From NCBI GenBank assembly GCA_027335685.1, contig DAHWHN010000076.1, positions 1 through 39,783 of the forward strand: 39,783 nucleotides of DNA. Reading direction: 5' to 3'. The DNA comes from Acidimicrobiaceae bacterium (lineage in GTDB: Bacteria; Actinomycetota; Acidimicrobiia; Acidimicrobiales; Bog-793). A program made the position numbers and the translations under genes. The notes under the pieces were generated by a model, which ran no database searches, had not been told where the DNA came from, and was given only the letters and a program-made list of their open reading frames with translations. This document shows, in pieces, positions 24,103 to 39,783 of this stretch. The number at the start of each line of letters is the position of its first letter. Positions within the stretch are counted from its first letter, which is position 1.

Positions 24103-25158
24103 CTACGTCGCTGGGCCCTCGACCTCCTCGACCTCCTCGACCTCCTCGACCAGCACGCGGCGGTGCTCGGCGACCGAGCGCCGCGCCGCGAGCCCGATGA
24201 CCAGTGCGGCGCGCCCGTCCGTCCCGTCGACCGGCATCGCCGCGCCGGATCCGTGGGCGGCGGCGAACGCCTCCCACTCCCCCTTGTACGACGCCGCGTA
24301 GCGCTCGAGGAAGAAGTTCGGGAGCGCCGCAGAGCGCCCTCCCGAACTGTCGAGCACGGTGGCGGTGTGCTCCAAGGGGTTGCCGGAGGCGGCCATGCCT
24401 GCCGAGCCGTGCACCTCGACCCGCTGGTCGTAGCCGTAGCTCGCCTGCCGGCAGTTGTCGATCACCGTGAGGCAGCCGTTCGCGTGCCGCAGGGTCACCA
24501 CCGCCGTATCGACGTCGCCGAGCTCCGCCAGGGCTGGATCGAGCCGCACGGCGCCGAAGGCCGACACTTCGAGGACCTCGCTCCCGACGACGTAGCGGGC
24601 CATGTCGAAGTCGTGGATCGTCATGTCGAGGAAGATCCCACCGGACACCCGCGCGTACTCGACGGGCGGTGGAGCGGGGTCCCTGCTCGTGATGCGCGCG
24701 AGGAACGGCTCACCGACCTCGCCCGCGCGAACGGCCGCGTGGACGCGCCGGTGCGAGGGGTCGAACCGCCGGTTGAAGCCGACGAGCAACGCGACGCCGT
24801 GACGCTCGACGGCCTGGAGGGCCGTGTCGACCTCCGCGAGGTCGAGTGACACCGGCTTCTCGCAGAAGATGGCCTTGCCGGCCTGCGCGGCCGCCACGAT
24901 GAGCTCGACGTGGGTGTTCGTCGACGAGCAAATGGCGACGGCGTCGACACCGGGATCCGCGAGGAGCTCGTCGGTGGTGAGCTGCGGGACGCCCAGGCGC
25001 CTGGCAACGTCGGCGGCGAGCTCGGGACGGGCGTCCGAGACCGCGACGAGAGCCGCCCCGGGGACCTGTGTCGCGAGCAGGCCGGCGTGGAGGGCACCGA
25101 TGCGTCCGGCACCGACGATGCCGACCCGCAGCGGTCTGACCGCTCCCGGGGAGGTCAC
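24103..25158 (-). CDS. Gfo/Idh/MocA oxidoreductase (IolG-like)
   Basis: The 351-residue NAD(P)-dependent dehydrogenase is the last gene of the large operon. It has the Rossmann motif GIVGAGRIG (13-21), CEKPVS with the catalytic Lys (99-104), and GGIFLDMTIHDFDMARYV with Asp178 and His182. That last segment closely resembles myo-inositol 2-dehydrogenases (IolG). Related enzymes also oxidise C3 of sugars and glycosides, so the substrate is open. The GTG start overlaps the upstream TIM-barrel gene in a GTGA. The tail VEEVEEVEEVEG comes from a 9-base tandem repeat, so the true family C-terminus lies a little earlier. Confidence 0.92.
   Translation of the reverse strand: MTSPGAVRPLRVGIVGAGRIGALHAGLLATQVPGAALVAVSDARPELAADVARRLGVPQLTTDELLADPGVDAVAICSSTNTHVELIVAAAQAGKAIFCEKPVSLDLAEVDTALQAVERHGVALLVGFNRRFDPSHRRVHAAVRAGEVGEPFLARITSRDPAPPPVEYARVSGGIFLDMTIHDFDMARYVVGSEVLEVSAFGAVRLDPALAELGDVDTAVVTLRHANGCLTVIDNCRQASYGYDQRVEVHGSAGMAASGNPLEHTATVLDSSGGRSAALPNFFLERYAASYKGEWEAFAAAHGSGAAMPVDGTDGRAALVIGLAARRSVAEHRRVLVEEVEEVEEVEGPAT
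24119..24151. repeat. 9-base tandem repeats in the 3' end of the Gfo/Idh gene
   Basis: CTCGACCTC is repeated about 3.7 times and encodes the acidic Val-Glu-Glu tail. Confidence 0.85.
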
Positions 25159-26123
25159 GACCGGGGGCTCGGCGACGCCGAGCCACCAGCAACGGCACCA
25201 GCACCGGCACCAGCACCGGCACCGGCACCGGCACCGGCGAGAGCATCCAGGTAGGCGATGCTCACCCGCACGTCCTCAGCGGGGGTCGCGCGAGATGCTG
25301 CACCCTCGTCGATCGCCGTGTCCTGCTCGAGGACGTACCAGCCGTCGTATCCAGCCTCCTCGAGGATCCGCACGACCGAGGCGATGTCGACGTCTCCCTG
25401 GCCGAGGGAGCGGAACAGCCCGGCCGCGGTCGCCTCGCGGAGGGTCGTCTCGCCTCGCCGGACCGCCGCGGCGAGCCGCAGGTCCACGTCTGTCAGGTGG
25501 ACGAGCCCGACCCGTGCGGCGTTCTGCCGTGCGAACTCGACAGGGTCGACGCCTCCGATCGCGAGGTGGCCGGTGTCGAGGCACCAGGACACCGCCGAGC
25601 GCCGGAGAATCTCCGCGATGTCGTCGGCAGTCTCTACGAGGGTACCGACGTGGGGATGGAGGACCTGCACGAGGCCGTGCGCAGCGCAGATCCCGTCGAC
25701 GAGGGCCAAGCCGTCGGCCAGTGCCTGCCACTGCTCCTCGTCGAGAGCAAAGGGCGCCGACCACGCCGCGTCGACGACGGCGGCGGTGACGAAACGCGTA
25801 CCGCCTGCCCCGGCGAGCAGCTCCGCCGCGCGGGTGGCGTCCGCGACGAGCTGGTCTCGACGAGCCCGGTCGTGGAGGGAAAGCGGGACGAAGCCCCCGA
25901 CCGCGGCCAGCGAGAATCCCGCCAGGACCTGCTTGATCTCGTCCGGCTCGTCGCCGAGGTATCCGAGCGCCCCGAGCTCGCTCGCGCCGAGGCCGAGGTC
26001 GTGCATCTCGCCGAGCACGCGCTCTTTCGGGAGCATCACGCCCCAGCCCGGGACCTCGCAGACCCCCCACGAGATCGGGGCCGCAGCGATGCGACCGGCA
26101 AGAACTCCGCTGCCTTGTGCCAT
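25155..26123 (-). CDS. IolE-like TIM-barrel sugar isomerase/epimerase/dehydratase
   Basis: The 322-residue protein belongs to the xylose-isomerase-like TIM-barrel superfamily. It begins with AAAPISWGVCEVPGWG, a pattern of inosose dehydratases (IolE) and relatives. Likely metal ligands are in LHPHVGTLVE, CLDTGHLAIGG, LVHLTDVD and the C-terminal GWYVLEQD. Neighbouring IolG-like dehydrogenase (GTGA overlap) supports an oxidise-then-isomerise or eliminate pathway. The ATG at 26123 is chosen because the family begins there and GAGAG precedes it; a TTG at 26198 would add 25 residues. The C-terminal (Ala-Gly)n tail is encoded by 6-base repeats. Confidence 0.87.
   Translation of the reverse strand: MAQGSGVLAGRIAAAPISWGVCEVPGWGVMLPKERVLGEMHDLGLGASELGALGYLGDEPDEIKQVLAGFSLAAVGGFVPLSLHDRARRDQLVADATRAAELLAGAGGTRFVTAAVVDAAWSAPFALDEEQWQALADGLALVDGICAAHGLVQVLHPHVGTLVETADDIAEILRRSAVSWCLDTGHLAIGGVDPVEFARQNAARVGLVHLTDVDLRLAAAVRRGETTLREATAAGLFRSLGQGDVDIASVVRILEEAGYDGWYVLEQDTAIDEGAASRATPAEDVRVSIAYLDALAGAGAGAGAGAGAGAVAGGSASPSPRS
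25194..25239. repeat. 6-base tandem repeats in the 3' end of the IolE-like gene
   Basis: Units of GGCACC or AGCACC are repeated about seven times and encode an Ala-Gly tail. Confidence 0.85.
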
Positions 26124-26237
26124 CACGCTGCTCTCGCCCTTCGCTCGCGGCTCCAGGGTTCCCCGGGACGCCTCCTCGATGTCTTCATGTCCTAGCAAAT
26201 CTACGACGCTCGCGTGGTCGGCGTGGTCGGCGTGGCG

Positions 26238-27998
26238 TCACGCGCCGACGGCGTCCGGCCGGATCGCGATCTCGAGGGTGGCGTGCGACAGGGACCGGTC
26301 CGGAGCCGGGCGAAGCAGGACCTCGTAGTCTGCGGCCGCGCCTACCGAGGCGACAGGACGACACTCCATGCTCGAGACGTCGCCCGTTGCCGTGACGGTC
26401 AACGACCCGGCATGGACGGTGCTCGAGCCGTCCACGACGGGCACGGCACCGGAGAGCAGGAGACGCACGGCCTCGCCCGGGGCCGCGTTCGGGCGTTCGA
26501 GCGTGACTCCCCCGCTGTGCGTGCGCGCGTGGACGACGTGGGCCCCCGGCATCCACAGGGTCCCGACGTCGGGCCGGCGCCCGCTGCCGCCCCCACCGTC
26601 GCTCCCGCTGCCGCTCCCGCTGCCACTGCGTCTGCCGTGGCGATCGTCGCTGCCGCTGTGCGTGCCACGGTCCGAAAGGCCCTCGAGCCAGTGGACGCAG
26701 ACCGGCACGGCCTGACCCGTCGGCGGCCAGTCGCGCTCGCTCGCCTCCGCCCCGATCATGAGCGCCGGCGTGATCCACGAGGTGAGGACCCGCCCGCCGA
26801 GGTCGCGCCGCACGACGCCTCCCGCGGCCGGCGAGCTCCCCGAATTGCCCGAATTGCCCAGATTGCCCAGATTGCCCGGATTGCCCAGCGTGGCGCGGGC
26901 CGATCCTGCGACCGGGGCGAGGAACCTTGCGAGGCGTGCGACGACCGGTCCCGCCATGACGTCGTTGGAGTGGTGCACCTCGGGCGGGGTGCCCTCGTCG
27001 AGCCGGGCGCCCGGGGTGCGGGAGCCTTCGGCGACCACGAGCTCGGGGAGGGGCGCCTCCGACCCGCCGAGCAGAGCGGCGTACCAGAGACCGAGAAGCG
27101 TCACCGAGCGCGTCGCGTCGGGTCCGTAGCTGCGTGTGTACGGTCCGCACCAGTTGCGGAGCCGGGGGTTGTAGCGCTCGATGGTCTCGCGCCAGAGCGC
27201 CTCGGCGATACGCAGGCCTGCATCGCGCAGTCCCGGCGTCGGGCCGAGCTCGTGCCACAGCGCGAGCGCGAGCAAGTCGATGCCGTAGTAGGTCGGCGAG
27301 TTGTGCTCGTCGAAGCCCCCGAGCTCGTCGAAGCGCTCGACCAGCGACCGGGCCCGCTGCTCGCCGCGCTCGACGAGGTCGACGTCGCCGGTCCTCGTGC
27401 CGTACCAGGAGAGCAGGAACGCGTGCATAAGGCCGGGATTGGTGTAGTCGAGGGCGATCCGTGCGTCTGGCTCGCCATGGACGGCGCGGCCGATCGCGGT
27501 CTCGAGCCCTCCGGCGAGCGCCGCGGGGAGGTCGCCGCCGAAGTCCTCGAGCACGAGGACGAAGGTCGTGCCGAGGAACTGGCGCCAGTTGGGGTCGTAG
27601 TCCCGCCAGACGACGGCGTCCCCGTCCGGCGGGCGCGGCGACTCCGCGAAGGCCGCGAACGTGCCGTCGAAGGGCTCGCCCGGCGCGTCGTACTGGAGCT
27701 CGAGGAGCGCCCTGAGGATCGCGCACGCCTCGTCGAGGTCGCCCGGTGACCGGCGGGCGAGCAGGCCGTAGGCGATCCACGCGGAGTCGGGCACGAGGTG
27801 CACCGTGCGTGCCGGCACAGCGCCGTCGTAGCAGCTCGGGTTCCAGACCAGGTGGCGCGCGCGGTCGAGGAAGTCGAGGCTCCACGTGAGCGTCCGCCGG
27901 CCGAGATCGGCGCTGTGCTCCTGCGCGCCGGCGGGGCCGACGCGCTCCTCCTGCGCGCCGGCGGGGCCGACGCGATAGGTCGGGTTGGCCGGGCTCAC
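26238..27998 (-). CDS. Large uncharacterised protein, possible alpha/alpha-toroid carbohydrate-active enzyme
   Basis: I do not recognise a named family with certainty. The 586-residue protein has an N-terminal helical region of about 350 residues with repeated aromatic and acidic motifs (LVPDSAWIAYGLLARR, DYDPNWRQFLGTTF, DEHNSPTYYGIDLLALALWH, ERYNPRLRNWCGPYTRSYG). This is like six-hairpin/toroid glycosidases and lyases. A C-terminal beta-rich part follows (VTLERPNAAPGEAVRLLL and SLTVTATGDVSSM), as in heparinase-type lyases. There is no signal peptide. Two low-complexity inserts (Asn-Gly-Ser/Leu and Ser-Gly) come from tandem repeats, and RVGPAGAQE is duplicated at the N-terminus. The GTG start overlaps the GH4 stop (GTGA). 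A role on the glycoside handled by the operon is inferred. Confidence 0.75.
   Translation of the reverse strand: MSPANPTYRVGPAGAQEERVGPAGAQEHSADLGRRTLTWSLDFLDRARHLVWNPSCYDGAVPARTVHLVPDSAWIAYGLLARRSPGDLDEACAILRALLELQYDAPGEPFDGTFAAFAESPRPPDGDAVVWRDYDPNWRQFLGTTFVLVLEDFGGDLPAALAGGLETAIGRAVHGEPDARIALDYTNPGLMHAFLLSWYGTRTGDVDLVERGEQRARSLVERFDELGGFDEHNSPTYYGIDLLALALWHELGPTPGLRDAGLRIAEALWRETIERYNPRLRNWCGPYTRSYGPDATRSVTLLGLWYAALLGGSEAPLPELVVAEGSRTPGARLDEGTPPEVHHSNDVMAGPVVARLARFLAPVAGSARATLGNPGNLGNLGNSGNSGSSPAAGGVVRRDLGGRVLTSWITPALMIGAEASERDWPPTGQAVPVCVHWLEGLSDRGTHSGSDDRHGRRSGSGSGSGSDGGGGSGRRPDVGTLWMPGAHVVHARTHSGGVTLERPNAAPGEAVRLLLSGAVPVVDGSSTVHAGSLTVTATGDVSSMECRPVASVGAAADYEVLLRPAPDRSLSHATLEIAIRPDAVGA
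26842..26887. repeat. 9-base tandem repeats (GAATTGCCC type)
   Basis: About five copies of a 9-base unit ending ATTGCCC encode the Asn-Leu/Ser-Gly insert of the toroid-like protein. They are more AT-rich than their surroundings. Confidence 0.85.
27918..27974. repeat. 27-base direct repeat with 30-base period
   Basis: A 27-base sequence beginning CTCCTGCGCGCC occurs at 27918-27944 and again at 27948-27974. It duplicates ten codons (RVGPAGAQE region) at the N-terminus of the toroid-like protein. Confidence 0.88.
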
Positions 27999-29386
27999 CG
28001 GAGGTAGGCGAGGTGGGGACCGTGCTGCTCGCGGTAGTCGGCCATCATCTCTCGTGCGACGCTCACGCCGGGCACGAGGGGGTGGAGCGCGAGCGCGAGC
28101 GCAGCGAGCTCGGCGTCGCCCGTGACCGCAGCCTCGACTGTCGCCCGCTCGTACTCCTTCACCTGCGAGACGAGAGCGCGCGCCGAGCGCGAGAGCCCGT
28201 CGGTCGCGAGCGGCGCGATACCCCCGGCGTGGACGAGGGCCGGCACCTCGACGACGTCGTCGGGCTCGAGGAAGCCGAGGCTCGACCCGTTGCGCGTGTT
28301 GACGATCACCTCACCGGCACGACCCGACGCGAGGCCGTCGATGACCTGGAGCGCGATCCCCTCGTAACCACCCAGTCGGGCGTGCTCGAGGCGTGCAGGT
28401 CCCCTGCTCGCGCGCGCCTCGCGCGCGCTCGTCTGGCCGCTGTCGCCGTCGACGTCGGTCTTCATGTAGGTGTCCCGCCGGACACCGAGGAGGAGCTCGT
28501 AGGTCGCCCACGCGTCGTTGACGTCCCCGGTGTCGAAGGCCTTCGCGATCCCGGCCAGCAGCTCGGTGTTGAGGCGCTCGACGTCCTGCCCGCGGCTGGT
28601 GCCGGCGCGGGCGACACCCTCGACGTAGCGGGTCGGGTCGTAGTAGTAGTACACGTACTCGGTCGGGATCGCCCCGACGCGGCGGACGAGGGCTGGGTCG
28701 AACGCCGCGAACCGGTGGTCGAAGCCGACGAGCCGCTCGTAGTTCGCGAGCAGCTCAGCGATCCTCTCCTCGCCCCCGACGGTGAACGACGTGATCCAGC
28801 CGAGGTGGTTGAGTCCCCCGTAGGAGTAGGACCAGTCGTCCTCCTGCGCGCCGAGGAAACGGGCGAGGCGCTCCACCGTCCCGCTCGGCGTGTCGCAGAC
28901 GCCGACAGAGCGGACCGTCGCGTGCGACGCGAGCGCCTGGGTGATGATCCCGGCGGGGTTCGTGAAGTTGATCAGCACGGCGTGGGGTGACACCCGGGCG
29001 AGCGTCGCGGCGTAGTCGAGCACGACCGGGATCGTCCGCAGGGCCATCGCGCACCCCCCGGGACCCGTCGTCTCCTGTCCGACGACGCCGCGTGAGAGTG
29101 CAACCTGCTCGTCGACGACGCGCCCGCGGTCCCCGCCGACCCGGATCGCGGAGAACACGAAGTCCGCCCCCGTGAAGGCCTCCTCGACGTCGGGCGTGAC
29201 GCTGACGACACCGGGGTGGCCGAGGACGCCGGCGAGCTCCACGGCGAGGCGGCCGATGGTCTCGCGCCGGTAGGGGTCCGGCTCGAACAGTGCGATCTCC
29301 TCGAACGCCGACGCGTGACCGGACAGCACGGCGCGGACGAACGCAGGCATCCGCACGCCACCGCCACCGAGTATCGCCAGCTTCAT
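27995..29386 (-). CDS. Glycoside hydrolase family 4 enzyme (6-phospho-glycosidase type)
   Basis: GH4 enzymes cleave glycosides by an NAD- and metal-dependent oxidation/elimination at C3 and C2; most act on 6-phospho-glucosides. The 463-residue protein opens with MKLAILGGGGVRMPAFVRAV (NAD site). It has INFTNPAGIITQA (139-151), the metal ligands Cys164 in VGVCDTPSG and His194 in GLNHLGW, and TEYVYYYYDPTRYVEG. These are all standard for the phospho-beta-glucosidase branch. AAGGAG lies nine bases before the ATG, which overlaps the kinase stop (ATGA). No PTS genes are nearby, so the 6-phosphate would have to come from a cytoplasmic kinase such as the PfkB or ROK protein of the same operon. Confidence 0.94.
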   Translation of the reverse strand: MKLAILGGGGVRMPAFVRAVLSGHASAFEEIALFEPDPYRRETIGRLAVELAGVLGHPGVVSVTPDVEEAFTGADFVFSAIRVGGDRGRVVDEQVALSRGVVGQETTGPGGCAMALRTIPVVLDYAATLARVSPHAVLINFTNPAGIITQALASHATVRSVGVCDTPSGTVERLARFLGAQEDDWSYSYGGLNHLGWITSFTVGGEERIAELLANYERLVGFDHRFAAFDPALVRRVGAIPTEYVYYYYDPTRYVEGVARAGTSRGQDVERLNTELLAGIAKAFDTGDVNDAWATYELLLGVRRDTYMKTDVDGDSGQTSAREARASRGPARLEHARLGGYEGIALQVIDGLASGRAGEVIVNTRNGSSLGFLEPDDVVEVPALVHAGGIAPLATDGLSRSARALVSQVKEYERATVEAAVTGDAELAALALALHPLVPGVSVAREMMADYREQHGPHLAYLR

Positions 29387-30522
29387 CGCAGGTTCTCCTT
29401 TACGTCGTAGGGTCCTTCGAGTGGCGCGCCGCGACTGCTCGCGCGAGCGGGCCCGGCGCCGCCGAGAACAGTCGCCACGAGTCCGGACAGCGCGCCCGGC
29501 GAGCGGGACAACCCCTCGACCTCGACCTCGCCGACCGCGCCGAGCCGGCCCACTGCGTCGGACCCCGCGGCGTTGCCCGCCGCGACGGCGTCGAGCAACG
29601 TCGATCCCGCAACGAGGGCACCGACCAGGGCGCCGGCGAAGGAGTCGCCGGCGCCCGTGCGGTCGCGCACCTCGACCTCGTGGACGCCCTCGGCCACGAG
29701 CTGCGCGTGGCCGTCGCGCACGAGCGAGGCCCCGGCCGGTCCGCGTGTGACGACGAGCGTGCGGCACCAGGCCGACGCGATCTCGAGGCTCGCGTCGACA
29801 TCTCGTGCGCCGGTCAGGCGCGCGAGCTCGGCCTCGTTCGGCAGGAAGACGTCGGCGAGGCCCGCGCAGTCGACCACCGCTTCCCTGTCCTTCTCGATGC
29901 TGCCGAACGACAGGTCGAGGGCGACGCGCGTCCCGACGTCGTGCGCGTGGCGCAGGAGGTCCGCGACCCCGGGGCCCGCGTGGACGTAGCACCACGACGG
30001 GCGGTGCTCGTCGAGCACGCGGTGCCAGCGGTCGAGCTCGGGAGGCTCGCCCCCCGGACGGGACGGGACGTGGGAGACGAAGGAGCGCTCGCCGGAGAAG
30101 TTGAGCACGACGGTGATACCGGCCGTGCTGCCCGTCACACGGCGCGACGCGCGCAGGTCGATGCCGCGCGCGATGCAGTGCTGCTCCGCGACGCGAGAGC
30201 CGAGGTCGTCGCCGAGCAGCGAGCTGATCCCCGCCCGGGCGCCCGCTGCGCGCGCCGCGGTCGCGATCGTCACCGAGCCCCCGCAGGAGATGGCGAACTC
30301 GTCGGTGAAGATCTCCTCGCCGGGACCGGGGAGCCGTGGGACGTGGCCGAAGACCAGCTCGAGGAAGAGCTGGCCGAATGCGATCAGGTCCACGGCGTCG
30401 TTGGCGGCCCCGTCAACGGCCCCGTCCGCGGCCCCGTCGACGGCGGTGCCCAGGTCGGCATCGCAGGCGTCCACGTCCACGTCATCCTCTCTCGGGTCGC
30501 CACCCGACGTCGGCTCATCCAC
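29383..30522 (-). CDS. PfkB-family carbohydrate kinase
   Basis: The 379-residue ribokinase-type protein has a low-complexity N-terminus (about 45 residues, Asp/Ala/Gly-rich, partly from a 12-base repeat). The PfkB core starts at VDLIAFGQLF, with the GGSVTIATAARAAG segment near 81-94. The C-terminal signature DRTGAGDSFAGALVGAL carries the catalytic Asp293 (GAGD). The substrate is not readable; in this setting it could be the glycoside, the released sugar or a keto-deoxy intermediate like that of IolC. The GTG start overlaps the upstream gene by eight bases and the end overlaps GH4 by four. Confidence 0.93.
   Translation of the reverse strand: MDEPTSGGDPREDDVDVDACDADLGTAVDGAADGAVDGAANDAVDLIAFGQLFLELVFGHVPRLPGPGEEIFTDEFAISCGGSVTIATAARAAGARAGISSLLGDDLGSRVAEQHCIARGIDLRASRRVTGSTAGITVVLNFSGERSFVSHVPSRPGGEPPELDRWHRVLDEHRPSWCYVHAGPGVADLLRHAHDVGTRVALDLSFGSIEKDREAVVDCAGLADVFLPNEAELARLTGARDVDASLEIASAWCRTLVVTRGPAGASLVRDGHAQLVAEGVHEVEVRDRTGAGDSFAGALVGALVAGSTLLDAVAAGNAAGSDAVGRLGAVGEVEVEGLSRSPGALSGLVATVLGGAGPARASSRGAPLEGPYDVKENLR
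30405..30440. repeat. 12-base tandem repeats in the PfkB N-terminus
   Basis: Three copies of CGGCCCCGTCNN encode an Asp-Gly-Ala-Ala/Val run before the kinase core. Confidence 0.8.
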
Positions 30523-31573
30523 GCGGCAGGTCCATCCACCCGGTGCGCCAGCGGAAGTGCCGGCCGCTGCGGAGGTGGGCGACCACCGCCCGCTGTAGGC
30601 GCGTCTCGTGCGGGAGCTCGTCGAGAGGTGTGTCGACCGTGCGGAACACGAAGGTCAGCACGCCCCGGTCGCCGTCGCCCGCACCGGGGACGAGCGTGAA
30701 GCGGCGCTGGAACTCGAGGATGTTCGAGCCCGGGGCAAGGTACTCCTCGAGCTGGTCGTCGAGCAGCCAGCTCGAGCACGTCGCGACTCGACGCGTCGCG
30801 CTCGGGAAGCATTCGTCGAGGATGCGGCGAGCCTCGGCGTAGGACGCGGCGCAGCTCTCGGGCGTGAGCGGCGTCCCGCCGGGGATGTGGACCCCGAGCG
30901 CGTCGTCTCCGGTGCGAAAGCCTGGACCGAGCAGCGCCGCCTCCCCGTCGTCGTACCAGGGGCTCGGGTGCTCGGGTCCGCGCCCTAGCCGGAACACGGC
31001 GTACTGCAGGCGGCCGATCTCGTAGAGGATGCCACGCAGGTGCAGTGTCAACCACCACGGCTCGTCGACGCCGGTCGCCCCGGTCGTCGCCCGCTCGATC
31101 GCGACGTGGCGGCCGAGGTCGGCCAAGGTGGCCCACGAGACCTGCTCGGGCACGTGGCGGCTCGCGTGGTAGGCGCGTGTCGCCGGCATCGTCGCGAGGA
31201 CGAGGTGGAGGTAGAACGCCCCCCCGGCAGGACCGAGCCGGCTCGGCAGCTTCGGCCACGTGCCGCGCGCGGCGTCAGGGTCGCCGAGCGTGCGGACGAG
31301 GCGGGTCCGGCAGCGCTCGAGCAGCCACCAGCGCGCCGGGTCCGTGCGCGGGTCCGGGAGGGTCCCGACCGCGTCGGCGATCGCCTCGGGCGGGCAGCCG
31401 AGCTCGCGCAGGGTCGCCGCGGCCTCCCGCGGCGCAGGGAGCACCGTGCCCGGCTCGGGTCCGCCGAGGCAGTCGAGCTCGGCGAGCCACGAGCCGTAGC
31501 TGGCGTCGAGGCCGAGGTCGGCCGCGACCCGCTCGGGCCCGATCTGCGTGTCGTGCACGCGCCCGCCCCTCAC
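30515..31573 (-). CDS. GNAT-like acyltransferase-domain protein (NAT_N/GNAT_C type)
   Basis: The 352-residue product matches an actinobacterial family with an N-terminal NAT_N-like part and a C-terminal GNAT-like domain. Visible landmarks are WWLTLHLRGILYEIGRLQYA, LGVHIPGGTPLTPESCAASY, CSSWLLDDQLEEYL and SNILEFQRRFTL. The family is annotated by fold only; substrate and acyl donor are unknown. It lies between the OppF-like ATPase and the PfkB kinase, overlapping both (four and eight bases). That ties it to the sugar operon and suggests acylation of a sugar intermediate or a regulatory acylation. The GTG at 31573 gives a GTGA overlap; a GTG at 31558 with GAGGGG before it is equally possible. 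Confidence 0.82.
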   Translation of the reverse strand: MRGGRVHDTQIGPERVAADLGLDASYGSWLAELDCLGGPEPGTVLPAPREAAATLRELGCPPEAIADAVGTLPDPRTDPARWWLLERCRTRLVRTLGDPDAARGTWPKLPSRLGPAGGAFYLHLVLATMPATRAYHASRHVPEQVSWATLADLGRHVAIERATTGATGVDEPWWLTLHLRGILYEIGRLQYAVFRLGRGPEHPSPWYDDGEAALLGPGFRTGDDALGVHIPGGTPLTPESCAASYAEARRILDECFPSATRRVATCSSWLLDDQLEEYLAPGSNILEFQRRFTLVPGAGDGDRGVLTFVFRTVDTPLDELPHETRLQRAVVAHLRSGRHFRWRTGWMDLPRG

Positions 31574-32736
31574 GCGCCCGCGACCGGACCGAGCGGCGCC
31601 GCCTCGGCGCGGCCGGCGCGCCGGATCGATCCCGATCCGGCGGGCGCGGCGACATGGCAGGCTGCGCCCCGTCCGGGCGCGCACTCGACGAGCACCGGCG
31701 TCACGCGTGAGCACACCTCCTGCGCGACCGGGCAGCGCCAGCGGAAGCGGCATCCTTCGCCGGGGTCGACGACGCGCGGCGGCTCGCCGATGTCGGCGGA
31801 CGAGATGGCGATCCGCGCCCGCGGGTCGGGCACGGCCGAGAGCAGGAGCTTGGTGTAGGGGTGCACGGGGTCGTGGAGCACCTCCTCCGACGGACCCTGC
31901 TCGACGAGGTGGCCACCGTACATGACGAGGACGCGGTCGGAGACGTACCGGGCGCTCGCGATGTCGTGCGTGATGTAGAGGAGCGAGACGCCCTGCTCGT
32001 CGCGCAGGCGCGCCATGACGTTCAGCAGCCCGACGCGGATCGAGACGTCGAGCATCGACACGGGCTCGTCCGCGAGGATGAGCTTCGGCCGGTACGACAG
32101 CGCCTGCGCGAAGCCGATGCGCTGGCGCTGGCCGCCGCTCATCTCGTAGGGGTACTTGCGCAGGACCTGGCGGGCGGGCACGAGGCCGACCGACTCGAGC
32201 ACGCGCTCGGCCTCGGCGTCGCGCTCTTTGCGCCCGAGCTCGCTCCGGTGCAGCTTCAGGCCTCGCGCCATCACGTGGCCGATCGTGTGGGAGGGGTTGA
32301 GCGAGCTGAACGGGTCCTGGAAGACCATGGGGACCTGGCTGCGGTAGGCGAGGACGTCGCGACGGCTGCGGAGGTCGCCGAGCGGCCGGCCGCGGAAGAC
32401 GATCTCGCCGCTCGTCGGGCGGTACACCATCGCGAGCAGGCGCGCGACGGTGCTCTTGCCGCTGCCGCTCTCCCCGACCAGCGCGACGATCTCCCGCTCG
32501 CCGATCGACAGCGAGAGCTCGTCGACGGCATGGAGGCTGTGGCCGCGCAGCCCGCCGATGCGGAAGTGCTTCGTCAGCTCTCTCGTCTCGAGCAACGCTC
32601 CCGTCTCGAGCAACGGTCCCGTCTCGAGCAGCGGTCCCGTCTGGAGCAGCGCTCCCGTCTGGAGCGGCGCGCCGGTCCCGGGTACCGCGGCCTCGGGCAC
32701 CGCGGTCGCCCCGGGTCGCGGGTCCGTCTCAGGCAT
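31570..32736 (-). CDS. Opp-type ABC transporter ATPase (OppF-like), second system
   Basis: The 388-residue ATPase has Walker A GESGSGKST, QDPFSSLNPSHTIG, signature MSGGQRQR, Walker B LILADEPVSMLD, YITHDIAS and the C-terminal GCRFRWRCPVAQEVC extension. The N-terminus, before the usual start of the domain, carries a repetitive (T-G-x-L-L-E/Q) segment from an 18-base repeat, not typical of the family. The ATG at 32736, preceded by GAGG and overlapping the OppD-like stop by eight bases, is preferred over a TTG at 32757. Confidence 0.94.
   Translation of the reverse strand: MPETDPRPGATAVPEAAVPGTGAPLQTGALLQTGPLLETGPLLETGALLETRELTKHFRIGGLRGHSLHAVDELSLSIGEREIVALVGESGSGKSTVARLLAMVYRPTSGEIVFRGRPLGDLRSRRDVLAYRSQVPMVFQDPFSSLNPSHTIGHVMARGLKLHRSELGRKERDAEAERVLESVGLVPARQVLRKYPYEMSGGQRQRIGFAQALSYRPKLILADEPVSMLDVSIRVGLLNVMARLRDEQGVSLLYITHDIASARYVSDRVLVMYGGHLVEQGPSEEVLHDPVHPYTKLLLSAVPDPRARIAISSADIGEPPRVVDPGEGCRFRWRCPVAQEVCSRVTPVLVECAPGRGAACHVAAPAGSGSIRRAGRAEAAPLGPVAGA
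32584..32673. repeat. Five 18-base tandem repeats in the OppF-like N-terminus
   Basis: Units of the type CGTCTCGAGCAACGGTCC are repeated five times with few changes, encoding a repeated Thr-Gly-x-Leu-Leu-Glu/Gln peptide in front of the ATPase domain. Confidence 0.9.
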
Positions 32737-33769
32737 CGGACCTCGTTTCGTCGTCAACGGCCCGCTCGCGTGCGCCCGCGGCGCCCGGGACCGCCGCTGC
32801 GCCCTTACGCCCGGCCGAGTAGAGCAGGCAGCGGACCTCGCGACCGGCGACCGCGTAGAGCTCGGGCACGGTCGTCGAGCACGCGGGCGCGCAGCGCGCG
32901 CAGCGCGGGTGGAACCGGCAGCCGCTCGGCAGCGCCGCGAGGTCGGGCGGGCTGCCCGGTATCCCGTCGAGGTGGACCCGCGGTCCGTAGATGGAGGGGA
33001 AGGCCTCGAGCAGTCCGACCGTGTAGGGGTGCATCGGGGCGTCGAAGACCTCGCGAGTCGGACCGAGCTCGGCGACCTGACCCGCGTACATCACGACGAG
33101 ACGATCCGAGAAGTGGCTGACGAGGGACATGTCGTGGGTCACGAAGACGATCGCGAAGCCGAGCTCGCGCTGGAGCTCCTTGATCTGGACCATGAGCGAG
33201 CGCTGGGCGACGACGTCGAGCGCGGACGTCGGCTCGTCCATGAGGATCAGCTCGGGCGAGAACAGCAGGGCCATCGCGATCATCGCCCTCTGGCGCATGC
33301 CGCCGGAGAGCTGGTGCGGGAAGCTCGACAGGTGGACCGGGTCGATCCCGACCAGCTCGAGAACCTCGCGCGACCGCTTCGTGATGTCGGCCTTGGCGCG
33401 CGTGCCGTGCGCGCGCATCGCGTCGGCGAACTGCGCCGCGATCGACTTGACCGGGTTGAGCGCGTTCATCGCGCTCTGCATGACGACCGAGTAGTCCTTC
33501 CAGCGCACGCTCCGCAGCTGCTTCTCGGTCATCTGCACCATGTTCTGGCCCTTGAAGACGACCTCGCCGCGGGAGATCTCGGCCGGCGGGCTGAGGAGCT
33601 GCGCGATCGCGAAGAGCAGGGTCGACTTGCCGCACCCCGACTCGCCGACGACACCGAGGAACTCGCCCGCCGCCAGCTCGAGGCTCACGTCCGCGACGGC
33701 CTGGGCGGGCTCGCCACGCGTCAGGTACTCGACGCTCAGCTCGCGGACTTCAAGGATCGCGTCGGACAC
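32729..33769 (-). CDS. Opp-type ABC transporter ATPase (OppD-like), second system
   Basis: The 346-residue ATPase has Walker A GESGCGKST, VMQSAMNALNPV (OppD type), signature LSGGMRQR, Walker B LILMDEPTSALD, FVTHDMS and the C-terminal cysteines in GCRFHPRCARCAPAC. The start is the GTG at 33769, with GGAGGG upstream; it lies 20 bases inside the end of the OppC-like gene. An upstream in-frame extension to 33844 is antisense-like and rejected. It pairs with the OppF-like ATPase that follows. Confidence 0.94.
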   Translation of the reverse strand: MSDAILEVRELSVEYLTRGEPAQAVADVSLELAAGEFLGVVGESGCGKSTLLFAIAQLLSPPAEISRGEVVFKGQNMVQMTEKQLRSVRWKDYSVVMQSAMNALNPVKSIAAQFADAMRAHGTRAKADITKRSREVLELVGIDPVHLSSFPHQLSGGMRQRAMIAMALLFSPELILMDEPTSALDVVAQRSLMVQIKELQRELGFAIVFVTHDMSLVSHFSDRLVVMYAGQVAELGPTREVFDAPMHPYTVGLLEAFPSIYGPRVHLDGIPGSPPDLAALPSGCRFHPRCARCAPACSTTVPELYAVAGREVRCLLYSAGRKGAAAVPGAAGARERAVDDETRSDA

Positions 33770-34688
33770 GAGCCCTCCGTACCGGCCGCAGCGCCGGGTT
33801 GCCGATCTCGTCGAACGCGAAGTTGAGCAGCGAGAACGCGCCACCGAGCATCGCTATCGCGATCCCGGGCATGATCGCCCACAACGGCATCCCGGCCTGG
33901 AGCGCCTCGTTGTTCTCGGCCCAGTACAGCATGGTCCCCCAGCTCATCGAGCTCGGGTTGCCGAGGCCGATGAACTGCAGGCCCGCCGCAGCCAGCACGG
34001 CGTACAAGGCGGCGCCGAGGAAGTTCGCGACGATGAGGGACGTCATCGTCGGCAGGATCTCGAACACGATGATGCGCCACCTCCGCTCGCCGCGCAGCTT
34101 CGCCGCGACGAGGAAGTCCCGGCTGCGCAGCGAGAGGGCCTGTGACCGGAGCTGGCGGGCACCGTAGGACCAGCCCGTGGCGACGAGCACGGCGATGAGG
34201 ATCGTGTCCCCGCCGTTCTTCGAGTAGGCCGCGATGACCACGATCAGCGGGAACGCGGGGATGACGAGGAAGACGTCCGTGAACAGCGAGAGCAGGTCGT
34301 CAGCGATCCCGCCGAGGTACGCGGCCGTCACGCCGATCGCGACGGACAGCACCGTGGCGAGGCCGCCGACCACGAGGGCGATGACGAGCGACTGCCGCGT
34401 CCCCCAGATGAGCTGCGCGAAGACGTCCTGGCCGTAGGAGGTCGTTCCGAGCAGGTGCGCGGCCGACGGCGCGGCGCCGCGGGCGTAGATCTCCGCGTTC
34501 GGGTTGTCGGCCGCGAGCACGCGCGGGAACAGCGCGCAGAACGCGAAGAACGCGAGCAGGACCGAACCGGCCATCGCCTTGCGGTTGCCGAGCAGCGCCC
34601 GCCCGAGGTTGCCCGCCGTGCCGGACTTGAGCCGCGCGACCAGCTCCGCGACGCGCGCCGGTGGGGGGCCGACCGTCACCGTGGCCAT
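33750..34688 (-). CDS. Opp/Dpp-type ABC transporter permease (OppC-like), second system
   Basis: The 312-residue membrane protein has the OppC pattern: first helix AGSVLLAFFAFCALFPRVL, AAHLLGTTSYGQDVFAQLIW, the EAA-type loop in RSRDFLVAAKLRGERRWRII, and C-terminal helices ending LLNFAFDEIGNPAL. The start is an ATG seven bases after the OppB-like stop. It resembles the OppC-like protein of the first operon (the same HLLGTT and FDE/IDELGNP landmarks) but lacks that protein's long tail. Confidence 0.95.
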   Translation of the reverse strand: MATVTVGPPPARVAELVARLKSGTAGNLGRALLGNRKAMAGSVLLAFFAFCALFPRVLAADNPNAEIYARGAAPSAAHLLGTTSYGQDVFAQLIWGTRQSLVIALVVGGLATVLSVAIGVTAAYLGGIADDLLSLFTDVFLVIPAFPLIVVIAAYSKNGGDTILIAVLVATGWSYGARQLRSQALSLRSRDFLVAAKLRGERRWRIIVFEILPTMTSLIVANFLGAALYAVLAAAGLQFIGLGNPSSMSWGTMLYWAENNEALQAGMPLWAIMPGIAIAMLGGAFSLLNFAFDEIGNPALRPVRRARVRRDP

Positions 34689-34695
34689 GTCGCCC

Positions 34696-35679
34696 TCACC
34701 TCTCCGACCTCGTCCGGGGGTCGAGCACGAGCGTCACGAAGTCCACGACGAGCACGGCGACGAGCACGGCGACGGTGATGAGCAGGAACAGCGTCTGCAT
34801 GAGCGCGAAGTCCTCGTTCTGCACCGCTTCGAGGAGCATGTAGCCGAGCCCGGGGTAGGAGAAGACGTACTCGACGAGGATCGCCCCGCTCACGACGAAG
34901 CCGAGGGACATCGCGAAGCCCGTCAGGTTCGGCAGGATCGCGTTGCGGCCGGCGTAGTCCATCATGATGCGCGCCGGCGAGAGCCCTTTGGCCCGCGCCA
35001 TGCGGACGTAGTCCTCCGCGAGCGTCGTGATCATGTTGTTGCGCATCGTGAGGATCCAGCCACCGATCGAGGTGATGAGGATCGTGCACGCAGGCAGGAT
35101 CGCGTGGTCGAGCACGTCGCCGATGAAGTGCCAGGTCCAGCCGATCGTGTCGGTGTTCGAGTAGCCGAAGCCGAGCGGGGTCCAGCCGAGGGTGATCGAG
35201 AACGCGAGGAGCAGCAAGAGCGCGACGAAGAAGTAGGGGAACGCGGACGTCACGACGAACACCGGCGGCAGGATGCTGTCGAGCTTGCTGCCCCGCCGCC
35301 ACCCCGAGATCATCCCGATCAAGGTCCCGAGCACGAAGCCGATGATCGTCGTCACGCCGACGAGCACGAGCGTCCACAGGATCGCAGACCGCACGACCTG
35401 CAGGACCGTGTCCGGGAAGAAGGTCAGGGAGACCCCGAAGTGGCCGGTGAGGGTGTCGCCGAGATACCCGAAGTACTGGGATATCTCGCTTTGCTTGGTG
35501 TTGACGCCGAAGGCGATCTCGAGAGCGTGCAGCACCTGGCCGTTCACCCGCCCCCGGAACCTCGCCATCATCGCGATGGCGGGGTTGCCGGGCATGAGCC
35601 GAGGCAGGACGAAGTTGATCGTCAGGCACGACCACAAGGTGACGACGAAGAAGCCGAGCCGGCGGACGACGTAGCTCAC
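34696..35679 (-). CDS. Opp/Dpp-type ABC transporter permease (OppB-like), second system
   Basis: The 327-residue permease begins MSYVVRRLGFFVVTLWSCLT and has NFVLPRLMPGNPAIAM, several further helices, and the EAA-type loop in EDYVRMARAKGLSPARIMMD. The length equals that of the first-operon OppB. The start is a GTG at 35679. It follows the SBP gene by 13 bases and precedes the OppC-like gene by seven. Confidence 0.95.
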   Translation of the reverse strand: MSYVVRRLGFFVVTLWSCLTINFVLPRLMPGNPAIAMMARFRGRVNGQVLHALEIAFGVNTKQSEISQYFGYLGDTLTGHFGVSLTFFPDTVLQVVRSAILWTLVLVGVTTIIGFVLGTLIGMISGWRRGSKLDSILPPVFVVTSAFPYFFVALLLLLAFSITLGWTPLGFGYSNTDTIGWTWHFIGDVLDHAILPACTILITSIGGWILTMRNNMITTLAEDYVRMARAKGLSPARIMMDYAGRNAILPNLTGFAMSLGFVVSGAILVEYVFSYPGLGYMLLEAVQNEDFALMQTLFLLITVAVLVAVLVVDFVTLVLDPRTRSER

Positions 35680-35692
35680 GAGACCGAGTCGA

Positions 35693-37375
35693 CTACTTCT
35701 TCGGGCTCAGGTGCAGGAGAAGCACCTCGTTGTCCGGCGTGTTGTACGGCGCCGGCTGAGCGAAGGGGTTGGTCGGGGTCGGCCAGCCGGTGAACTGGCT
35801 CGTGCTGTACTGGAACCAGTCGACCGACTCCGTGATCGGGATCACCGGCACGTCTGCGAGCATGACGCCCTCCAGCTTGTCGACGATCTGGTGCTGGGTG
35901 GCAACGCTCGTCGTCGCGGCATACGCGTTGATGAGGCTATCGGTCGCGGGGTTCGAGTACCGCTCGTAGTTCGTGGACGCGAGCTGGCCGATCGGGGCGG
36001 TGTTAGGCCCGTAGAGCAGCTGGCGCAGCTCGTAGTACGGGCTCGGGCCGCCGGTCTCGTTGTCGAACGCGAGCTGGAAGCTGCCGCGGTACAAGTCGTT
36101 GTCGAAGTCGGTGCCCGCCAGGTTGTCGACGGTCACCTTGATCCCGACCGCGGCGAGCTCGTGCTGGACGATCTGGAGGTCCGCGACCCAGTCGCTGTTG
36201 CCGCCCACGTTGATGATCGTGAAGGAGAGCGACTTCCCGCCCTTTTGGAAGACCCCGCCGGGACCGCGCTTGTAGCCGTCCTTCTCGAGGATCGAGATCG
36301 ACCTCTTCGGGTCGTAGCCGTAGCCGTACTGTGCGGCGGCGGGCTTGTCGAGCCACGAGGAGAACGTCGGGGTGACGATCCCGGTCTGGTTCGCCGCCGG
36401 CTCGTAGCCGTACTCGCCGATCGACGCGACCTGGCTGCGGTTGATCGCGTAGGCCATGGCCTGGCGGACCGCGAGGTCGTTGAGCGGGGCCACCTTCTGG
36501 TTGATGAACAGCGAGACGTTCGCGACGGGCGGGAACCAGTCGTGGTTGCTCGGGGACTTCGAGAGGTAGAAGGCCTTGATCCCCGGGATGAACTGCCCTC
36601 CCCACTGCGCCTGGCCGGTGGCGAGGTAGGTGTTGGCCGGCTGGTTCGAGGTGAACGCCGGGTACTCGAGCGTCGCGATCTTCGGCAGCCCGGGCTGCCA
36701 GTAGTGGGTGTTCGCGGCGTAGGTGATGTTCTGCCCCGTGCAGTTCTTCACCGTGTACGGGCCCGAGCCGACCGGGGAGGTGTCGGGGTAGGTGACCGGG
36801 TTCTTGATCTTGGACCAGATGCTCTCGGGCACGATGGAGACCTGGTCGGCGACGTAGTAGAAGTACGGGACCGCGGCGGTCTTGAAGGTGAGCACGACCT
36901 GGTCGCTCCCCTTTTGGACGACGCTGTCGAGCACCGACCAGACGGCGTTGATGTCGAGGGCCGGGAACTTCTTCAACAAGTTGAAGCTGAACGCGACGTC
37001 GGCGGCCGTGAGCGGCGTGCCGTTGGTCCACTTCACGCCCTTGCGCATCGTGAAGGTCAGCACCTTGTTCGCGTCGCTCCACGCGTAGCTCGACGCGAGC
37101 CACGGCGTGGTCTTCGCGTTGTCGAGGGAGTCGACGAACACGAGCGGCTCGTAGACAAAGCCGGCCGACTCCTGGAACACCGCCGGGTTGTACGGGTTGA
37201 AGTTGCAGGTCCACAGCGATCCGGACTCGTTCGAGATGGTCAGCGTGCCGCTCGGCCCCGAGGCGTGGTGCGTCTCGTGGACCCGGGCCGCCGACGCGGG
37301 TGTCCCGGCCGTGAGGCCCGTGGCGAGCAGCGCCGCGGGTACTGCGACGGCCGCCGGCAACCAACGTCGTGTCAT
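35693..37375 (-). CDS. Extracellular solute-binding protein, family 5, second system; no lipobox
   Basis: The 560-residue SBP_bac_5 protein has the family landmarks YEPLVFVDSLDNAK, YAWSDANKVLTFTMRKGVKW, TNGTPLTAADVAFSFNLLKK, SPVGSGPYTVKN and LNDLAVRQAMAYAINRSQVA. The C-terminal DVPVIPITESVDWFQYST region helps form the ligand cleft. The signal peptide (AAVAVPAALLATGLTAG, type I site after ASA) has no cysteine, so the mature protein is not predicted to be lipid-anchored. It starts two codons from the ROK kinase stop and should be the most abundant product of the operon. The ligand is probably a glycoside. Confidence 0.95.
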   Translation of the reverse strand: MTRRWLPAAVAVPAALLATGLTAGTPASAARVHETHHASGPSGTLTISNESGSLWTCNFNPYNPAVFQESAGFVYEPLVFVDSLDNAKTTPWLASSYAWSDANKVLTFTMRKGVKWTNGTPLTAADVAFSFNLLKKFPALDINAVWSVLDSVVQKGSDQVVLTFKTAAVPYFYYVADQVSIVPESIWSKIKNPVTYPDTSPVGSGPYTVKNCTGQNITYAANTHYWQPGLPKIATLEYPAFTSNQPANTYLATGQAQWGGQFIPGIKAFYLSKSPSNHDWFPPVANVSLFINQKVAPLNDLAVRQAMAYAINRSQVASIGEYGYEPAANQTGIVTPTFSSWLDKPAAAQYGYGYDPKRSISILEKDGYKRGPGGVFQKGGKSLSFTIINVGGNSDWVADLQIVQHELAAVGIKVTVDNLAGTDFDNDLYRGSFQLAFDNETGGPSPYYELRQLLYGPNTAPIGQLASTNYERYSNPATDSLINAYAATTSVATQHQIVDKLEGVMLADVPVIPITESVDWFQYSTSQFTGWPTPTNPFAQPAPYNTPDNEVLLLHLSPKK

Positions 37376-38362
37376 CTACATGCCCCTCCTGTTGTCATGC
37401 GACACGCAGCTCTTGCGTGCCGGGTTCTCGAGGACCTGGCGTGCGCACCCGAGTGCCATCTCGACGGCGCCGCGCAGCGCCGCTCCGTCCGGGCGCGCCG
37501 CGAGCACGAGCTCGGGCGGGTAGGGCACACCCGACTTGAGGGCCCGCTCGAGCGGGCCGGAGAACCTCGCCCAGGAGCGGGTCAGCCCGCCGCCGACGGC
37601 GACGCGGGCCGGGTCGAGCGCGACGACGAGGTTGACGAGGTGCGCGGCGAGGTGCTCGACGAACTCCTCGACGAGCTCCGCGAGAACGGGGTCGCCGTCG
37701 GCGGACTCGAACACCTCGGTCGCGTCGACCGGCCGGCCGAGGCGGCGCGACGCGACCGCCGCGAGGCCCATCCCGCTCACGACGTCCTCGAGCACCGCGC
37801 GGCCCGCGAGCGGGCGGTGGACGTCGCCGTGCGAGACGAGGCTGTAGCCGATCTCGCCGGCGGCGCCGTGCGCCCCGAGGAGCACCTGGCCGCCGACGAC
37901 GGCCGCGGACGCGAGACCCGTGCCGAGGTTGAGGTAGAGGCCGGGGTCCTGGCCGACGAGGGCCCCGCTCCTGGACTCGAAGAGCGCCGCCGCCTTCACG
38001 TCGTTGCCGACCCATGCCGGCACCCCGAAGGCCTCTTCGACGCGGCGTCCGAGGGCGACCGATCCCCACCCGGGGATCGCCGGGGCGAGGTCGACGCCGT
38101 GGTCGAGGGGGATCCCGATCGTCGACACGCCGACTGCGACGAGCTGGGCCTCGGGCCCGGCGCCGCGGACCGCGGCGTGGCCCATCTCGACGAGCCGCGC
38201 GAGCACCGCCGGGGCACCCTCCACCGATGCGGTGGCGCGCAGGTCGTCGACGAGCTGCCGGCCCTCGAGGTCGCAGACCGCAGCCGCCAACTTCGTCCCT
38301 CCGACGTCGATCGCCAGCACGACCGGGATCGGTCCCGGCTGTGTCTGCATCTGCCCCCCCAT
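37376..38362 (-). CDS. ROK-family sugar kinase without the zinc motif
   Basis: This first gene of the operon encodes a ROK kinase. The phosphate motif LAIDVGGTK (17-24), catalytic Asp121 in GNDVKAAAL and the LNLGTG motif (145-150) are intact, so kinase activity is likely. The usual ROK zinc site (GHxxx...CxCGxxGCxE) is absent: AAGEIGYS has Tyr where His is normal, and no cysteine cluster follows. The beta-glucoside kinase BglK is a ROK member acting with GH4-type hydrolases, which makes phosphorylation of an imported glycoside a fair guess. Start is uncertain: ATG at 38362 or 38350, or GTG at 38395. Confidence 0.88.
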   Translation of the reverse strand: MGGQMQTQPGPIPVVLAIDVGGTKLAAAVCDLEGRQLVDDLRATASVEGAPAVLARLVEMGHAAVRGAGPEAQLVAVGVSTIGIPLDHGVDLAPAIPGWGSVALGRRVEEAFGVPAWVGNDVKAAALFESRSGALVGQDPGLYLNLGTGLASAAVVGGQVLLGAHGAAGEIGYSLVSHGDVHRPLAGRAVLEDVVSGMGLAAVASRRLGRPVDATEVFESADGDPVLAELVEEFVEHLAAHLVNLVVALDPARVAVGGGLTRSWARFSGPLERALKSGVPYPPELVLAARPDGAALRGAVEMALGCARQVLENPARKSCVSHDNRRGM

Positions 38363-38441
38363 TGCCACCGTTATCGTCACCGTTCGTACTGTCACGGATG
38401 GTGCCGTCTCGAGCGGTGCCCTGCACCGCCTCCCCCGAGAC

Positions 38442-38462
38442 AGATAGGAAAGTTACCTATCT
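38442..38462. promoter_or_regulatory. 21-base dyad operator between the ROK kinase and ROK regulator genes
   Basis: AGATAGG and CCTATCT flank an AAAGTTA centre; with two inner matching pairs, nine of ten base pairs of the dyad agree. It covers the -10 box of the predicted minus-strand promoter and lies just before the ROK regulator gene, so that regulator is the likely binder. Confidence 0.7.
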
Positions 38463-38478
38463 GGAGCGCGCCTGGCAA
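38450..38478 (-). promoter_or_regulatory. Predicted promoter of the twelve-gene operon
   Basis: On the minus strand TTGCCA, 17 bases and TAACTT make a plausible housekeeping promoter, with the -10 inside the dyad operator. Its -35 box touches the start codon of the divergent regulator gene. Confidence 0.55.
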
Positions 38479-39713
38479 TGGGCTATCGTGAACGCATCGT
38501 TACGAGCCGGCCCGAGCACACCGACCAGCTGGAGGCGGCCCCTGGCGCCGGCCGGGTCGGCCAGCCACGACTTCTCCGGGCGATCAACGAGCAGGCGCTG
38601 CTCAACGCCCTGCGCCGGTACGGCCGGCTGACCCGTGCCGAGCTCGCCGAGCTGTCCGGGTTGTCGAAGCCGACCGTCGGCGCGGCGCTCGTGCACCTCG
38701 AGGGCGACGGCCTCGTCCAGGTCGTCGGCCGCCGCACGGGCGGGCGCGGCCCGACGGCGCTCGTCTACGAGCTGCGGCCCGACGCGGGGTTCGTGCTCGC
38801 GCTCGACGTCGGCAGCGAGTTCGTCCGGGGCGGCGTCGCCGACCTCTCCGGCACGATCCGGGCGCGTGGCCACCGTGGCGTGCACGCCGCGAGCGGGCAC
38901 GCCCGGATGTCCGGGCTCGTCGAGCTCGCGGGCGAGCTGGTCGAGCGGGCCGGCATCTCGCTGTCGTCCATCGTCCAGACGATCGTCGGGAGCCCCGGGG
39001 TCCACGACCCGGTCCACGACGTCCTCACGGTCGCGCGCGGCCTCCCCGGCTGGGAGCGTCCGGGCGTGCTCGCGGACCTGCGCCGGTCCTTCGGCGCCGC
39101 GACGCTCGTGCAGAACGACGTGAACCTCGCCGCGCTCGCCGAGCGGGACCACGGCCAGGGACGAGGCGTCGAGACCTTCGCGTTCGTGTCGGTCGGCACC
39201 GGGGTCGGGATGGGGCTCGTGCTGTCCGGGCAGCTCCACACCGGAGCGCACGGCACGGCCGGCGAGATCGCCTACCTGCCGATCGCGACCGACGACGGCA
39301 TCGACCTGCGCGACGCCCGCCGGCGCGGCGCGCTCGAGGCGGCCGCGTCCGCGGCGGGCGTCGTGCGCGCCGCGCGCAGCCGCGGCATGACCGGTCGGCT
39401 GACGGCGCAGCGGGTCTTCGCAGCTGCGGCCGCGGGCGACGAGCGGGCGCGCGCCGTCGTCGCCGGCGAGGCCCTCCTCGTCGCCCGAGCGATCGCCTCG
39501 GTCGCCCTCGTCGCGGACCCTGCGCTCGTCATCCTCGGCGGGGGCATCGGCGGCGCGCCGGGCTTTTCCGACGCGGTCGCGTCTGCGCTCGCGGGCCTCG
39601 TGCCCGCTCCTCCCGAGCTGCGGGTGAGCGCCTTCGCCAGCGAGGCGATCGTCGAGGGCGGGATCGTGGCCGGCGTCGACCTCGCGTGGGGCAAGGTCCT
39701 CGACCGGTCCTGA
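38478..39713 (+). CDS. ROK-family transcriptional regulator
   Basis: The 411-residue protein has an N-terminal winged helix-turn-helix (LLNALRRYGRLTRAELAELS, then GLSKPTVGAALVHLEGDGLV at about 41-80) and a ROK sugar-binding domain. The ATP motif is degenerate (LALDVGSEFVRGG rather than DxGGT), while QNDVNLAAL and SVGTGVGMG remain. It is therefore likely a sugar sensor and not a kinase. The zinc-binding cysteines are missing here too (GEIAYLPI). It is divergent from the ROK kinase operon with a dyad operator between them, the usual layout for a local repressor released by a sugar or sugar phosphate. GGAG lies upstream of the ATG. Confidence 0.93.
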   Translation: MGYRERIVTSRPEHTDQLEAAPGAGRVGQPRLLRAINEQALLNALRRYGRLTRAELAELSGLSKPTVGAALVHLEGDGLVQVVGRRTGGRGPTALVYELRPDAGFVLALDVGSEFVRGGVADLSGTIRARGHRGVHAASGHARMSGLVELAGELVERAGISLSSIVQTIVGSPGVHDPVHDVLTVARGLPGWERPGVLADLRRSFGAATLVQNDVNLAALAERDHGQGRGVETFAFVSVGTGVGMGLVLSGQLHTGAHGTAGEIAYLPIATDDGIDLRDARRRGALEAAASAAGVVRAARSRGMTGRLTAQRVFAAAAAGDERARAVVAGEALLVARAIASVALVADPALVILGGGIGGAPGFSDAVASALAGLVPAPPELRVSAFASEAIVEGGIVAGVDLAWGKVLDRS

Positions 39714-39783
39714 GCGCGAACTTCCCGCCACGGCGGACGCTCCGCTCGGGGGAACGCGCCGTGCCCGGCGGCGCGCGCGCCGG

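Follow-up and report, generated by a model that had tools for sequence, protein, structure and literature searches.

On a 39,783-nucleotide stretch of Acidimicrobiaceae DNA (in its whole length called the window here), a short palindrome lies between the gene for a ROK-family transcriptional regulator and a divergently oriented sugar operon. The question raised by this locus is whether the palindrome serves as the operator of the adjacent regulator, and how the operon would then be controlled. An earlier note on the same DNA had suggested a near-perfect dyad covering the -10 box of the divergent promoter, with the regulator repressing an operon of twelve genes and perhaps its own gene. From sequence comparisons we consider it very likely that the adjacent ROK regulator uses the dyad as its operator and, as a repressor, would block the operon promoter until released by a sugar. 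For an Acidimicrobiaceae-like bacterium on which little work exists, the locus thus offers a concrete candidate operator together with its regulator and target operon.

The dyad, the adjacent regulator and their joint conservation

The dyad AGATAGG-N7-CCTATCT, which resembles a CsnR-box and has no strand, occupies positions 38442-38462, with the left arm at 38442-38448, the right arm at 38456-38462 and a spacer of 7 bases, and forms the core of a 25-bp motif at 38440-38464. Its coordinates agree with those of the earlier note, nine of the ten mirrored positions match across the whole 21-mer, and the -10 hexamer TAACTT falls within the dyad, on its spacer. By symmetry alone such a dyad is moderately unlikely, unusual but not extreme: when the 115-bp intergenic region was shuffled 5000 times by dinucleotides, 15 of the shuffled sequences contained an equally symmetric odd 21-mer, rising to 39 of 5000 once widths of 19-22 were permitted. 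The window holds 14 odd 21-mers of equal symmetry, the dyad included, and the dyad is the only AT-rich one (7 G+C bases, against 13-20 of 21 in the other 13). The strong evidence for the dyad comes from its conservation, more than from symmetry. Near the regulator start, at 38488-38504, the sequence GTGAACGCANSGTTACG was also observed, the same DNA in two genera with differing reading frames; among 35 family genomes exact copies occur at this locus only (in G000, G001, G002, G005 and G023).

The regulator (P0001, 411 residues, plus strand, 38478-39713) combines an N-terminal winged helix-turn-helix (residues 37-90; MarR_2 and HTH_24 above their cut-offs) with a ROK domain (PF00480, 122 bits). 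Its nearest relatives in named records, both 82% identical, come from an Acidimicrobiaceae MAG (L032) and an Actinomycetes MAG (L034), and other members of the group are labelled Acidimicrobiales, Kribbella, Streptosporangiaceae and others. A cysteine zinc motif is usual in ROK proteins; by eye, it is missing from both the regulator and the divergent ROK kinase (37376-38362).

Searching the collection of named genomes for the regulator gave 65 loci, 54 of which, at an identity of at least 44%, were taken as its group (55 loci with the window; not independent, as 12 are Kribbella and 15 are grouped as Streptosporangiaceae-like). Palindromic expectation-maximization on the 400-bp upstream regions of the 54 relatives, with the window excluded, returned the motif ATNGTTAGGANANTNTCCTAACNAT de novo (fraction 0.90), with a log-likelihood of 753 versus 46 for shuffled upstream regions. 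Each locus was then scored with its own group removed from the matrix, the window without its genus. Scored in this way, the window site reached 30.2 bits versus 7.2 bits for the next place in the 39.8 kb, and over the 55 loci the median margin over the next match was 24.6 bits. In 51 of 55 loci and 19 of 23 groups, the best match of the locus attained at least 15 bits and was placed no more than 3 kb upstream of the regulator, 49 of these 51 sites being within 600 bp; by this count, 51 of 55 have the conserved upstream palindrome that marks a ROK regulator with a cognate operator. No good upstream site was found in L047, L055, L075 and L083, and in L047 and L055 neither a kinase nor an importer stands beside the regulator. 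None of 500 column-permuted palindromic matrices reached the score of the window site (highest 21.1 bits), and for 77 of the 500 the best window match fell in the same AT-rich intergenic region. A2 leaves out L075, L076, L077 and L084 as well as duplicate sites.

Outside the group, eight Actinomycetospora homologues (32-34% identity) had no site (best 5.8 bits). Three distant homologues do score, namely L094 (Bacteroidales, 19.0 bits at -121), L096 (Streptomyces, 18.8 bits at -111) and L095 (21.3 bits at +5973), so that a score of 15-21 bits cannot stand as proof alone. L094 and L095 appear rich in AT, a bias that raises scores, and L096 may carry a related box.

The scan for further sites that the earlier note had proposed was carried out in the genome of the bacterium (2.39 Mb, 82% complete). 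It recovered one site, both with at most 3 mismatches and by profile, which is the one beside the regulator, and none of the further sites looked for in this 82% complete assembly. The regulator itself was detected at E 1e-80 or better in 11 of 35 family genomes, the bacterium's own included. A scan of the same 35 genomes with the R1 profile, built partly from sites later recovered with it, placed a site in 7 of the 11 with the regulator versus 1 of the 24 without it (Fisher 3.4e-4); the single match among those 24 is a weak one (E 0.44), and no site was found with this profile in G005, G023, G019 and G029. In a profile search of nine genomes reached from named loci, six matched, one Kribbella genome at several places. 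A consensus pattern with at most 2 mismatches proved too blunt for 20 genomes and was rejected: ten matched, mostly at places other than this group's sites, and control patterns read in reverse matched too; the bacterium's own genome gave no match.

The site was also seen in other gene arrangements. In G030 the kinase gene and its operon lie about 11.8 kb from the regulator and have a site of their own, which scored 26.4 bits once the matrix was fixed, with a promoter read by eye as TTGCAC-N17-TAACTT. The copy of the operator on the regulator side faces a GH20 beta-hexosaminidase frame followed by a GNAT frame (L038:6153-7733). In L057 and L073 the regulator follows genes for a PfkB kinase and a GH4 enzyme on the same strand, and the best match is found about 2.6 kb away, upstream of this PfkB-GH4-regulator series. 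A weaker second match (16.2 bits) lies just upstream of GH4 in L084, a Chloroflexi-labelled locus.

The divergent promoter and the operon

The operon promoter is read on the minus strand as TTGCCA-N17-TAACTT, with the -35 box at 38473-38478, overlapping the first base of the regulator ATG, and the -10 box at 38450-38455, within the dyad. It has a spacer of 17 and points toward the kinase gene. Counted by eye, TTGCCA matches consensus at 5 and TAACTT at 3 of 6 positions, and a strict sigma-70 scan returned no promoter in 37000-39783, since its threshold is 9 of 12 matches and this promoter has 8.

The arrangement recurs among the relatives. On the operon strand, TTG 13-15 bases before the 25-mer together with TANNNT 16-18 bases further on was present at 34 of 52 loci (L047, L055 and L083 being left out of the count), against 0 or 1 of 52 at the other offsets tried and 0 to 2 of 52 over the offsets on the regulator strand. 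This fixed-offset count was devised after the printed sites had been viewed, and is used in place of a first -35 metaprofile (mean hexamer match), which showed no peak at the expected offset and had its best offsets inside the dyad. The strict pattern is absent from 18 of 52 loci, among them the near relatives L033, L037 and L039. A -10 box placed within the predicted operator is, on this evidence, a trait of the family, a placement that suits steric repression. Between the dyad and the regulator ATG (38478) lie 15 bases; no plus-strand promoter for the regulator's own gene was seen by eye in the dyad, and at the matching offset the regulator strand carries the pattern at 1 of 52 loci.

The proposed twelve-gene operon fits the spacing, with 12 minus-strand frames from 38362 to 24103 that, as framed, either overlap or leave gaps of no more than 39 bases. 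The first frame encodes a ROK-family sugar kinase with no helix-turn-helix match (37376-38362, alternative start ATG at 38350), and is followed by an importer made up of a SBP_bac_5 solute-binding protein (35693-37375), an OppB-like permease (34696-35679), a second permease (33750-34688), and OppD-like (32729-33844) and OppF/DppF-like (31570-32757) ATPases, the real starts of which are probably further in. Next come a NAT_N/GNAT_C acyltransferase (30515-31753), a PfkB-family kinase (29383-30522) and a GH4 glycosidase (27995-29995), for which homology begins near residue 203, so that its real start would be near 29390. The following frame of 586 residues (26238-27998) has coding-like base usage and no family match: Pfam, NCBIfam and PDB gave nothing at the limits used, except one match at E 0.23, and it did not match the GH20 protein of L038.

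The sugar operon ends in an IolE-like gene and an inositol 2-dehydrogenase gene (24103-26198). The former encodes a xylose-isomerase-like TIM barrel (25155-26198) that matched the IolE model below its cut-off, and the latter (24103-25158) belongs to the inositol 2-dehydrogenase family (TIGR04380, above cut-off). An inositol 2-dehydrogenase is on the contig of the regulator in G001, as in the window, and on another contig in G005, G023 and G060, while G030, G024, G007, G013, G019, G029 and G061 gave no match at 1e-60. The operon may have acquired its inositol genes late, with the fragmentation of the assemblies to be kept in mind.

Proposed repression model, alternatives and possible effector

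In the mechanism that we propose, a dimer of the regulator would bind the palindrome of 21-25 bp and thereby cover the -10 box, hence the start region, of the minus-strand promoter, and RNA polymerase would be kept off the kinase-transporter-glycosidase operon. A sugar ligand bound in the ROK domain would lower the affinity for DNA and induce the operon. Control of the regulator's own gene may be a further part of the mechanism. The core of the earlier model, a ROK regulator with a dyad operator and a divergent operon, is backed at the sequence level by the de novo motif, the leave-group-out scores, the conserved promoter and the relocated operon with its own copy of the site.

Alternatively, the dyad could serve as operator for a different ROK regulator (a CsnR-type paralogue) rather than for the adjacent gene. 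Candidates exist, with 8 ROK matches in the bacterium's own genome (kinases counted), and the box is common to several ROK branches, four ROK genes outside the group having TTAGGAAANTTTCCTA[AT]-type boxes nearby. Against this, the site tracks this regulator group and its gene order at 51 of 55 loci, and the one such site in the bacterium's own genome adjoins this regulator, which makes the paralogue improbable. We regard it as slightly more improbable still that the regulator acts mainly as an activator here: ROK proteins may activate or repress (PMC9599254), and TAACTT with its 3 of 6 matches is weak, but at 34 of 52 loci a 17-spaced promoter has its -10 box under the site, and in published descriptions NagR operators overlap -10 or -35 boxes and the csnN106 palindrome overlaps the transcription start, both proteins being repressors. 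A palindrome arisen by chance, or a terminator hairpin, has next to no probability as an explanation of the dyad: the 14 equally symmetric 21-mers of the window speak for chance, but conservation across the loci, seen in the de novo motif and the leave-group-out scores, speaks against it, and no terminator-like site was found in 37000-39783.

For the repressor model, our best guess is that the effector would be an amino-sugar or beta-linked oligosaccharide, of the chito- or beta-gluco- kind. The guess rests on four points: the PDB matches of the importer binding protein, which include one named a chitin oligosaccharide binding protein and one mannoside-binding; the best PDB matches of the GH4 enzyme, named 6-phospho-beta-glucosidases; the predicted second target, GH20, in G030; and the response of CsnR to (GlcN)2, the strongest competitor of CsnR binding (PMC6097792). 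A far bolder idea, which we hold to be a long shot, is that a widespread lineage related to CsnR but separate from it controls uptake of an amino-sugar glycoside, and that the operon in the window's genus has gained inositol dehydrogenase-like and IolE-like genes, so that an amino-sugar inositol, a glycoside of the mycothiol type, might be scavenged intact and act as the ligand.

Comparison with CsnR and other ROK systems

Several known regulators share parts of this arrangement. NagR of Bifidobacterium is likewise a ROK repressor, and 10 of its 11 predicted operators overlap the -10 or -35 box, an overlap from which steric repression was also argued; NagR, however, runs a global regulon with 11 predicted sites, versus the one site found in the window's genome (PMC9599254, in part). 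BglR of Thermotoga maritima, a ROK protein that governs a beta-glucoside operon containing ABC importers, is alike in regulator and type of operon but comes from another phylum. RokB of Streptomyces coelicolor is a ROK regulator binding its own bidirectional promoter region; its genomic sites, with A-rich edges and a TVCVT center, are unlike the window site. BgrT of Bifidobacterium was dropped as a ROK comparison, since its paper gives TetR. For Kribbella, no publication on a ROK regulon was found in the open library searched.

The closest likeness is to CsnR (Streptomyces lividans/coelicolor), a ROK protein acting as repressor of csnA and of the csnREFGHK cluster to which its own gene belongs; in actinomycete chitosanase control the CsnR-box reads AGGAAANTTTCCT, with positions 5 and 9 mattering most (PMC6097792). 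The window core AGGAAAGTTACCT has one mismatch to this core as given there, at neither position 5 nor 9, and 18 of 21 bases are alike between the window site and the csnN106 operator (PMC3048496). Exact TTAGGAAANTTTCCTAA occurred in 2 of 13 Streptomyces-genus genomes searched. In G074 such a box starts 45 bp ahead of a ROK gene, after which come genes for SBP_bac_1, for two permeases, for GH4 and for a BcrAD_BadFG kinase, which is the csnREFGHK layout. The ROK protein of G074 is 32% identical to P0001 and has the recognition helix GLSKPT, which P0001 and the CsnR-like proteins bearing nearly the same box have in common. At seven loci viewed with a TTAGGAAANTTTCCTAA-type box, a ROK match adjoins it in L137, L139, L141 and L142 and none does in L136, L138 and L140. 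A nearly identical box also lies close to genes of another ROK branch and to a Kribbella ROK-GH4 pair (L137, L139 and L141), and related ROK repressors would on this account share an operator sequence.

Lineage and gene content set the two systems apart. In a tree of 29 of the 54 loci (L042 removed for an internal stop, the others only for thinning), P0001 falls in a clade of 27 rows (99/100) with L080, L083 and L084 at the edge of its group, while four box-bearing ROK proteins, that of G074 included, form a separate clade (100/100), the two joining at 83/81. By clade, P0001 would therefore not be the orthologue of CsnR, as it stands outside the clade of the box-bearing Streptomyces ROK protein; the latter, chosen by box and gene order, stood in for CsnR (SCO2657) in the comparison. 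By cluster make-up (L143: SBP_bac_1, GH4, BcrAD_BadFG) the window differs too, though GH4 is present. Both systems combine a ROK regulator with an ABC importer, a GH4 enzyme and a sugar kinase, but the window has SBP_bac_5 and two Opp-type ATPases instead of SBP_bac_1, a ROK kinase instead of BcrAD_BadFG, and a regulator gene divergent to the operon instead of leading the cluster. Judged from these comparisons, the window system is best described as CsnR-like and in a separate lineage, not as CsnR. A box known from Streptomyces chitosanase control now extends to this separate ROK lineage, and with recognition helix and box both shared, one may ask how related ROK repressors within a single cell are kept from acting at each other's sites.
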